A stretch of DNA of 64,000 nucleotides, taken from assembly GCA_947629675.1 (NCBI GenBank), contig CANREM010000009.1, forward strand, positions 1-64,000, given 5' to 3'. Source of the stretch: an uncultured Clostridia bacterium. GTDB lineage: Bacteria > Bacillota > Clostridia > Christensenellales > Borkfalkiaceae. The notes beneath the pieces were generated by a model. That model saw only the letters and a list, made by a program, of their open reading frames with translations. It was not told the DNA's origin and did no database searches. This document shows, piece after piece, positions 3,494 to 62,361 of the stretch. How positions within the stretch are numbered: the first letter of the stretch is position 1; every line of letters starts with the position of its first letter. The translations under genes were made by a program, and so were the position numbers.

Positions 3494-3970
3494 TCATTGA
3501 TCGATCTTCTCTTTCTTTTCGGGAGCGACGGCTACCTTGCGGGCACGGCCGAGCGCGGCGGAAAATTCCTCATAATCCGCGATGAGTTTTTGCACCTTCG
3601 CCTCGCCGAGTTCTTCGACGACGGCCTCGATGATGGTGTTTGCCTGTTTGCACTGTTCCTCGAAGATCGCCATGGAACGGTCGGAGAGGCGGATATAGGC
3701 GATCTTTCTATCGTCGGGTGCGGCGGTGCGCTTGACGACGTCCCGCTGTTCGAGCTTTGTGACGACCTGCGAGACGGCCGAACGGGTGATCCCGAGACGG
3801 CGTGCAAGTTCGGAGGAGATGATGCTTCTCCCCTCTTTCCCCTCCATCACGATCTCACGGATGAGACGGAATTCCGTCTTGGAGAGCTTTGCGGCATCCG
3901 AGAAAAGATCGAGGCTCTCCATATCCTTGATGATCTTGAACAATTTTACAAGATATTCGTTTGTTTCCAC
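3494..3970 (-). CDS. MarR-family transcriptional regulator
   Basis: A 158-residue winged-helix protein. The central region carries the MarR pattern: a helix-turn-helix around 'ELARRLGITRSAVSQVVTKL' followed by the wing 'DDRKIAYIRLSD'. The flanking helices would form the dimer. The start codon is GTG (CAC at 3968-3970), with AAGGGG about 9 nt upstream. It is first in an operon with the ABC exporter, and an inverted repeat overlaps its own promoter, so it probably represses itself and the exporter until a ligand binds. The ligand is unknown. Confidence 0.88.
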   Translation of the reverse strand: METNEYLVKLFKIIKDMESLDLFSDAAKLSKTEFRLIREIVMEGKEGRSIISSELARRLGITRSAVSQVVTKLEQRDVVKRTAAPDDRKIAYIRLSDRSMAIFEEQCKQANTIIEAVVEELGEAKVQKLIADYEEFSAALGRARKVAVAPEKKEKIDQ

Positions 3971-61205: not shown

Positions 61206-61465
61206 ACAGGATGAGGCGGTTACATGCGGACTTCGTATTAGGGGATCCTCTCGGGGCTACGCCCCTCGGGATGACGCGGTTGACCCGCGCGGTCGCCCCA
61301 CCCCCTTTGATTCCCCCTCCCGAGGGAGGGGGTGACGGACTTCGTAACGGGGGATCCTCTCGGGGCTACGCCCCTCGGGATGACGCGGTTGACCCGCGCG
61401 GTCGCCCCACCCCCTTTGATTCCCCCTCCCGAGGGAGGGGGTGACGGACTTCGTATCGGGGGACG
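61206..61465. repeat. Mosaic repeat cluster, two 109-bp units plus a partial third
   Basis: GGACTTCGTA recurs at 61228, 61337 and 61446 (period exactly 109). Each unit contains GGATCCTCTCGGGGCTACGC-type hairpin, GATGACGCGG, and the CCCCACCCCCTTTGATT / CCCCCTCCCGAGGGAGGGGG module. No gene was seen in the 520-bp gap 60957-61476 apart from the ABC promoter. Confidence 0.92.
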
Positions 61466-61476
61466 TTGATTTTTTA

Positions 61477-61701
61477 TCAGTGGTCCTTCTTGATTTCCAG
61501 AATATCATCGGCGGAACAACCGATGAAGTTGCAAAGTTTGGAGAGGTTCGCAAGCGTGGGCAGCGTTCGGCCCGAGAGATATTGCGAGAGCGACGATGAA
61601 TCGATCCCCAAAGCCCTTGCGATCTCGATCTTCTTTTTCCCGCTGTGTTCGATCTCGAACTTCAAATTTTCACTGATTTTTTCATCTAAAGTTTTATCCA
61701 T
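61477..61701 (-). CDS. Xre/Cro-type DNA-binding protein
   Basis: About 74 residues (start taken at ATG 61701; the ORF track uses GTG 61707). A single helix-turn-helix: 'KKIEIARALGIDSSSLSQYL' then SGRTLPTLANLSKLC. No extra domain, so it is probably a dimeric repressor of the divergent 44-codon gene and perhaps of itself. No strong ribosome binding site. The gene is somewhat AT-richer than its surroundings. Confidence 0.82.
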   Translation of the reverse strand: MDKTLDEKISENLKFEIEHSGKKKIEIARALGIDSSSLSQYLSGRTLPTLANLSKLCNFIGCSADDILEIKKDH

Positions 61702-61734
61702 ACCCACATTTTATTGGGTAATGCTAAAAAATGC

Positions 61735-61780
61735 TTGACATCTGGGTGTCGCCCAGATTATAATTTAAGCAACACTTAAA
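61735..61780 (+). promoter_or_regulatory. Promoter of the 44-codon gene with two inverted repeats
   Basis: -35 TTGACA (61735-61740), 18 nt, -10 TATAAT (61759-61764). The spacer is almost wholly the inverted repeat TCTGGG-TGTCG-CCCAGA (61741-61757). A second repeat TTTAAG-CAACA-CTTAAA (61764-61780) covers the start region. Both have 6-bp arms and a 5-bp gap, with centres 23 bp apart, as expected for paired repressor operators. Confidence 0.8.
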
Positions 61781-61795
61781 TAAACGGAGGAAAAA

Positions 61796-61930
61796 ATGAG
61801 CATAGAACAGCTGCTTGCTCTGCTGCGGGCGGAGCTTGAGGACGATCTCGTCGGAATGGTCTCAGTGGAAAAGAACACACTCATAATCTCTTTTGCAGAT
61901 GGATCGGAACGCAAAATCACTGTCTCGTAA
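61796..61930 (+). CDS. 44-residue protein divergent from Xre gene, hypothetical
   Basis: Not in the ORF track. 44 residues: an N-terminal acidic helix (SIEQLLALLRAELEDD), then two probable strands ('TLIISFADGSERKITVS'). It has GGAGG 6 nt before the ATG, a consensus promoter with operators, and a perfect 15-bp hairpin after the stop, so it is well supported as a gene. The divergent pairing with a lone Xre protein could be a toxin/antitoxin-like or switch module; nothing identifies the function. Confidence 0.78.
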   Translation: MSIEQLLALLRAELEDDLVGMVSVEKNTLIISFADGSERKITVS

Positions 61931-61944
61931 CGCTTTTGTAAGCA

Positions 61945-61983
61945 ACAAGGTCTCCGCAGACAATTTGCCTGCGGAGACCTTGT
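61945..61983 (+). terminator. Hairpin after the 44-codon gene
   Basis: Perfect 15-bp stem ACAAGGTCTCCGCAG / CTGCGGAGACCTTGT, 9-nt loop, followed only by GTTTCGG, so the T-tract is weak. Confidence 0.6.
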
Positions 61984-62361
61984 GTTTCGGACATGGTATG
62001 GTCGTTTCATGTCGGGATGACGCGGTGGGACATCGGACTTCGTAGTTCGGGATGCTTCGAGGATGGGCCGCTATGGACTGCGTATTTTTTTGGTCGGCTC
62101 AGCATGACGCGGTTGACCCCGCGGTCGCCCCACCCCCTTTGATTCCCCCTCCCGAGGGAGGGGGTATTGGACTTCGTATGAGGGGATCCTTCGACTTCGG
62201 CTTCGCCTCCGCTACTTCGCCTGCGGCTCGTGCCGCGCTTAGTAGACAATAGTGCGCGCGGGGCAGAATGACGCGTGGGATAGGCAAGGCGCGGGGCAGA
62301 ATGACGCGGTTACCAGACGCAGAATCGCGTAGCAGATATGCGATTAGCAAGATGAAAACAT
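61984..62361. repeat. Mosaic repeat cluster with GGACATGGTA motif and a filled GCT/CAG site
   Basis: A gene-free 431-bp gap. In order: TCGGACATGGTATGG (motif 61989-61998), GGGATGACGCGG, GGACTTCGTAG links, an 'empty' GGCTCAGCATGACGCGG (about 62096-62112), the CCCCACCCCCTTTGATT hairpin module, GGACTTCGTATGAGGGGATCC, the insert module at 62214-62263, and CAGAATGACGCG twice. ORFs here are repeat translations. Confidence 0.85.
62214..62263 (+). mobile_element. GCT/CAG insert module, copy C (50 bp)
   Basis: ACTTCGCCTGCGGCTCGTGCC ... GTGCGCGCGGGG, located between ...GGCTTCGCCTCCGCT and CAGAATGACGCG. The left 30 nt are identical to the repeat at 10153-10182, where GCT runs directly into CAGGATGACGCG with no insert. 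Confidence 0.75.

Follow-up and report, generated by a model that had tools for sequence, protein, structure and literature searches.

What is the role of a gene of only 44 codons that faces a lone helix-turn-helix (HTH) gene in a gut Clostridia genome, and what does its neighbor control? The locus lies in the stretch of DNA analysed here (the window: positions 1-64,000 of contig CANREM010000009.1, assembly GCA_947629675.1), from an uncultured Clostridia bacterium (Borkfalkiaceae). The genome comprises 1.57 Mb in 37 contigs, of which the window is contig 9, and among public genomes its near relatives are metagenome-assembled ones from rabbit gut, likewise labeled 'uncultured Clostridia bacterium'. 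Considering the locus together with its relatives, we think it probable that the two genes constitute a self-contained, repressor-locked cassette from which a small cytoplasmic effector protein is expressed. The features are as follows (XRE-A denotes the regulator type of the window).

61227-61444, no strand: dispersed intergenic repeat, two tandem copies on the xre side (third copy at 62117-62190)
61477-61701, minus strand: xre, 74-aa single-HTH Xre/Cro-type repressor (Pfam HTH_3, E 9e-11; relatives 57-86% identical elsewhere)
61710-61715, minus strand: putative -10 box of xre (TAAAAT on this strand; AATAAAAT kept in most aligned XRE-A loci)
61714-61728, no strand: putative operator O1, TTGGGTAATGCTAAA, overlapping the xre promoter (11/12 to TTRRGYNNNRCYYAA; same position in relatives)
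61735-61764, plus strand: small-gene promoter, TTGACA-18-TATAAT (12/12 consensus match)
61740-61758, no strand: putative operator O2, ATCTGGGTGTCGCCCAGAT, in the -35/-10 spacer (centre 61749)
61763-61781, no strand: putative operator O3, ATTTAAGCAACACTTAAAT, near the start point (centre 61772; 12/12 to the consensus)
61784-61789, plus strand: ribosome-binding site with a GGAGG core, read from the sequence
61796-61930, plus strand: 44-codon gene (homologues, purifying selection, AlphaFold2 model)
61945-61983, plus strand: 3' hairpin, probable terminator lacking a clean T-run (-33 kcal/mol, z -7)

The two genes diverge, with 94 bases between them. The regulator starts at the ATG at 61701 (the GTG at 61707 is an alternative) and carries the HTH_3-type domain of Xre/Cro-C1 regulators (42 bits against PF01381, cut-off 23); a sensory domain is absent. 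Given the position of its -10 box, the xre mRNA would probably begin at or beside the ATG, i.e. be leaderless. Promoter-like sites matching at least 9/12 are more frequent in the 2.5-kb region than expected (4 versus 1.4). The preliminary description of a tiny gene with a consensus promoter and a strong ribosome-binding site, facing an xre gene, is confirmed. Its hairpin terminator fares less well: the hairpin is real, but it lacks a clean T-run and does not appear in the terminator listing of our promoter/terminator scan of the region. Several relatives have both a hairpin and a T-run at the end of the gene.

The preliminary description had also reported two inverted repeats of equal geometry, in the promoter spacer and at the start point. 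Both are present (TCTGGG-N5-CCCAGA, centre 61749; TTTAAG-N5-CTTAAA, centre 61772), and O1 raises the count of operators to three. Judged from the window by itself, they are no more than mildly improbable (2 palindromes of at least 7/9 versus 0.35 expected from mononucleotide shuffles, P ~0.05), which is what could be said for a chance assembly, in which an ordinary orphan Xre gene would happen to adjoin a spurious ORF and palindromes without meaning. What makes them convincing is that the same pattern recurs at fixed positions in most relatives. Across 22 XRE-A loci, TTRRGYNNNRCYYAA is found at -15, +14 and +36/37, counting from the start of the -35 box; most sites match at 10-12 of 12 positions, and there are 61 of them versus 20 expected by shuffling. 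In several relatives O2 is the mirror image of O1, with the 5' edge of the -35 box as the axis; three divergent XRE-A loci (L016, L076, L017) have only fewer or weaker sites. Thus, operator conservation, which had been set beforehand as a test, holds for position and sequence alike.

A related geometry is seen beyond XRE-A. Among the promoters of all loci, 73/83 match the consensus at 9/12 or better. In 28/83, XRE-A loci with mirror-image O1 and O2 among them, the centre of the best inverted repeat falls no more than one base from the 5' edge of the -35 box; the promoters were picked automatically for this count, and close relatives are included in it. Inverted repeats beating all 40 dinucleotide shuffles also number 28/83 (about 2 expected). 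Many loci with tandem-HTH regulators have a single extended palindrome, with arms of up to 22 bp, that brackets the -35 box, and L081, L082 and L112 are perfect examples of a dyad at its 5' edge; at the ribbon-helix-helix (RHH) locus L018, AGTAGTAT-AAA-ATACTACT lies on the -10 box instead. With its dyad at the 5' edge of the -35 box, the operator gives a simple promoter architecture that is open to testing.

The 44-codon gene itself belongs to a family. A search with the single protein detected homologues in 17/151 genomes, including the window's own. A first profile (E 0.01) matched 69/398 genomes of the bacterial family, the weakest matches possibly being due to chance, and a wider profile (E 0.001) matched 31/347 genomes of the order. 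In a 300-genome sample of the phylum the same wider profile recovered the window's own genome alone (0/299 outside the order), and the false-positive rate is therefore low. Ka/Ks is about 0.05-0.2 in close pairs, with most variation at third codon positions; these codon comparisons show purifying selection on the protein that the small gene encodes. Together, the homologues, the Ka/Ks values, the operator conservation and the phylum control leave the chance assembly hardly credible, conservation being already enough to refute it. Family members range from 44 to ~100 aa, the longer ones having N-terminal additions. The window's genome contains two further members (C5:43082-43201 and C6:41043-41171), both with long Xre partners. 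Elsewhere, L077 (G161:C23) packs three copies, all with a divergent Xre gene of their own, into 6.7 kb.

Neither Pfam, NCBIfam, PHROGs nor PADLOC gave a family match for the small protein, and Pfam searches with 45 relatives revealed no common family, only two weak single-member matches. The protein has a pI of 4.3, and its AlphaFold2 model, built from 11 sequences (mean pLDDT 84.7), consists of a helix (3-13) and three strands (19-25, 28-33, 38-42), with no DNA-binding fold. Structure searches with the model yielded no significant match; against viral models the best Foldseek hits (E 0.01) were unnamed small proteins. Three candidate affiliations were rejected: an FtsH extracellular-domain-like fold (Foldseek E 0.17-0.31 only; hhalign probability 1.7% versus 14 FtsH sequences), kinship to a YSIRK surface protein or other solved hairpins (only a local F-x-DG hairpin is shared), and a viral origin (searches of phages, plasmids, viral contigs and PHROGs found no relatives). 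Since the family is missing from these four resources and yet occurs order-wide in gut Clostridia, naming it would make many unannotated genes recognizable.

The small-protein homologues do lie beside Xre genes elsewhere, the second finding that had been set as a test. A DNA-binding gene adjoins the small gene divergently in 80/96 examined loci, with two further cases recognized by eye; in 2/96 an HTH gene is downstream instead, and about one locus in seven has no recognized regulator nearby. Among the loci of the order-wide search (L144-L181), the divergent arrangement is found in 31/38. Because homologues are found beside Xre genes and the operators are conserved, the view that xre and the small gene would form a regulated pair is well supported at the level of comparative sequence. 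From the anatomy and the established knowledge of Xre and CopG repressors, we infer a repressed, autoregulated pair.

The regulators are of several kinds: the window's XRE-A type; other single-HTH Xre types (L003, L004, L070, L079, L102); tandem double-HTH Xre proteins of ~148 aa, which are the majority in the order; and CopG/RHH proteins (L002, L007, L018, L071). They represent non-homologous families (HTH_3, tandem HTH_3, CopG/RHH_5). Identity to the window's small protein is ~52-59% beside RHH regulators, compared with 34-57% beside its own Xre type and up to 66% beside other Xre types. The exchange of an RHH for an HTH partner is certain from the fold; that phylogeny forces repeated exchange among the Xre types was also considered and was not significant (44-column tree, AU p 0.13). 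Seven loci (L102, L148, L163, L166, L168, L173, L177) have a double regulator array, a second Xre gene lying directly behind the first in the same orientation.

This diversity bears on the action of the small protein. Since its model has no DNA-binding fold and the regulator is exchanged for unrelated folds, it is unlikely, as far as the model can tell, to be a Cro-like opponent of Xre. Of the 'miniature switch' in the preliminary description, the regulated pair stands; a switch in the sense of two mutually antagonistic proteins appears unlikely. An alternative is that the small protein is an anti-repressor, which binds the neighboring repressor and relieves repression, giving a positive-feedback switch with a logic comparable to that of SinI/SinR or to the modulator roles proposed for small partners of Streptomyces Xre proteins. 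The constant neighborhood and the single-domain, sensorless repressor fit this model, and the XRE-DUF397 and WhiJ/BldB pairs provide examples of Xre genes whose small partners can have a regulatory role (PMC10364602, PMC10294661). However, HTH and RHH regulators, which are not homologous, both partner the one small-protein family, its helix/hairpin core is conserved whatever the partner, and the same Xre type is retained beside other cargo or none, so that we regard an anti-repressor as unlikely. The exchange of non-homologous regulators around one small-protein family favors an effector acting outside the cassette.

The retention of the regulator is clear from the XRE-A loci. XRE-A occurs in 23/151 genomes and, by comparison with the small-protein searches, stands together with the small gene in 14 of them; in six more (G006, G031, G057, G068, G073, G075) no small gene was recognized beside it. 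The O1/O2 geometry precedes other genes in G108, G090 and G098 (L261, L263 and L267), where two or three perfect TTRRGYNNNRCYYAA operators stand before unrelated cargo, namely genes for a lipoprotein-like product of 263 aa, for a 79-aa protein and for a membrane protein whose tail is rich in cysteine. At L257, O1, O2 and the hairpin are kept and the gene between them is missing, whereas two orphan xre loci with no recognizable cargo gene keep O1: L251, where it is perfect and the only operator, and L262, where a stop interrupts xre itself. One small gene with non-homologous repressors, and one repressor type with unrelated genes, mean that the lock is separable from its cargo, and this separation predicts that the job of the small protein is independent of its neighbor.

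In three loci (L019/L184, L072/L185, L075) the regulator is absent and the gene is preceded instead by a structured leader RNA with a terminator-like hairpin at its end.

L184:502-701; L185:2011-2185; L075:3358-3566 and 3633-3832; G264:C27:10519-11334: leader RNA, ~200 nt

This RNA, often in tandem, combines a closing helix (GUUGCGAC/GUCGCAAC) with the hairpin, and matches no known family in Rfam. A pattern search found it in 7/251 genomes of the family. It precedes three small-protein family members and also 'FGH/FIGH' genes, which we take to be SLOG-like and whose start codon comes shortly after the hairpin. It is a candidate cis-regulatory RNA. Elsewhere, an FGHR-motif gene (L032:5474-5911, G034), SLOG-like by eye, is found close to an RHH-small-protein pair. 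Considering all loci, we tentatively suggest that the helix-plus-three-strand protein may be the constant effector of an unnamed, order-wide class of regulated modules in gut Clostridia, for which single-HTH Xre, tandem-HTH Xre, RHH proteins and, in few loci, the structured leader RNA would be interchangeable locks on one promoter geometry.

On the observed gene pair, operators, geometry, homologues, regulator exchange and occurrence of XRE-A beside other genes, a scheme of binding, repression, derepression and effector action can be proposed. An Xre dimer would bind the three palindromes of 15-17 bp. By occupying O1 the dimer would control transcription of its own gene from a weak, probably leaderless promoter, and by occupying O2 and O3 it would cover the spacer and the start of the consensus promoter, and so keep the 44-codon gene silent. 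Once the repressor is lost or inactivated, the strong promoter and ribosome site would drive a burst of 44-aa protein synthesis, presumably from a monocistronic message that ends at the hairpin. The protein would then act outside the cassette and not on its own repressor.

The location of the cassette is also variable. In the window it lies between a gene of the fumarase/aspartase family (here aspA) and an ABC exporter, while in at least seven congeners (L023, L026, L027, L029, L031, L035, L036) the XRE-A cassette is downstream of pheT, a gene that we named from its sequence and that is present without the cassette in the window's genome. In the near relative G067, whose flanking proteins are 91-92% identical, the aspA-ABC interval lacks the cassette; the G067 assembly is only 66% complete, so the cassette may sit elsewhere in that genome. 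Because it is on the pheT side in congeners and between aspA and the ABC exporter here, with the same interval empty in G067, the cassette has moved, or has been gained or lost. The earlier idea of an inserted unit is thus upheld in part; its flanking repeats, however, are no proof of element ends, as they belong to a dispersed family (core CGCGGTCGCCCCACCCCCTTTGATTCCCCCTCCCGAGGGAGGGGG) with 32 matches in the window's genome, and neither insertion machinery nor a target duplication was seen at the locus. A base-exact right end at 61984/61985, where homology to G067 resumes, was also rejected, this point being inside what appears to be another dispersed repeat.

How does the cassette compare with known systems? 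In type II toxin-antitoxin loci whose antitoxin is of the Xre or CopG type (HigA, PezA, CcdA), a small gene likewise adjoins the gene of an Xre or RHH regulator, and that regulator controls its own expression, as we infer here. A toxin-antitoxin-like module, in which a harmful small protein is held in check solely by transcriptional silencing, would agree with the strong promoter under tandem operators, the patchy multi-copy distribution, the relocation, and the fact that repressors lacking cargo are frequent in the genus, while entirely uncontrolled cargo seems to be rarer. In the window and its relatives, however, the genes diverge and form no antitoxin-toxin operon; the small protein shows no toxin fold and no Pfam, NCBIfam or PADLOC match, and the weak HigA/PezA/CcdA matches are below cut-off and cover the DNA-binding domain only. 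Several loci have the small gene without a recognizable regulator, and fourteen XRE-DUF397 pairs, once proposed as toxin-antitoxin systems, did not behave so (PMC10364602). We consider such a module improbable.

Like acr-aca operons, the cassette combines a small gene and an HTH regulator with inverted repeats over -35/-10, and its HTH partners are exchangeable; Aca1 and Aca2 are HTH autorepressors that bind inverted repeats in this position (PMC8434428). An anti-defence gene of this kind, encoding a small inhibitor of a host system under an exchangeable autorepressor, is nonetheless very improbable: acr-aca operons are co-directional and borne by phages or mobile elements, whereas the present cassette is divergent, shares no homology with them, is without matches in phages, plasmids, viral contigs or PHROGs, and has chromosomal housekeeping surroundings (pheT, aspA).

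The Streptomyces XRE-DUF397 and whiJ/bldB/abaA clusters comprise many paralogous copies of an Xre gene and a small-protein gene per genome; a toxin-antitoxin function was proposed and not borne out (PMC10364602, PMC10294661). The present family resembles them in having an Xre regulator beside a small protein and multiple copies per genome. It differs in that the Streptomyces small gene is usually downstream of the xre gene, while the window's genes diverge, and in that the Streptomyces protein carries DUF397, while the window's protein has no Pfam match. In the XRE-DUF397 pairs, to our knowledge, the regulator is not replaced by one of another fold. Finally, in lambda-type OR regions related palindromes lie between divergent genes, over the repressor promoter and the opposing promoter. 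The opposing product of the cassette is not, according to its model, a DNA-binding Cro, and the cassette has a single small gene with no lysis or replication genes; the layout is nonetheless similar, with O1 over the xre promoter and O2/O3 over the opposing promoter.
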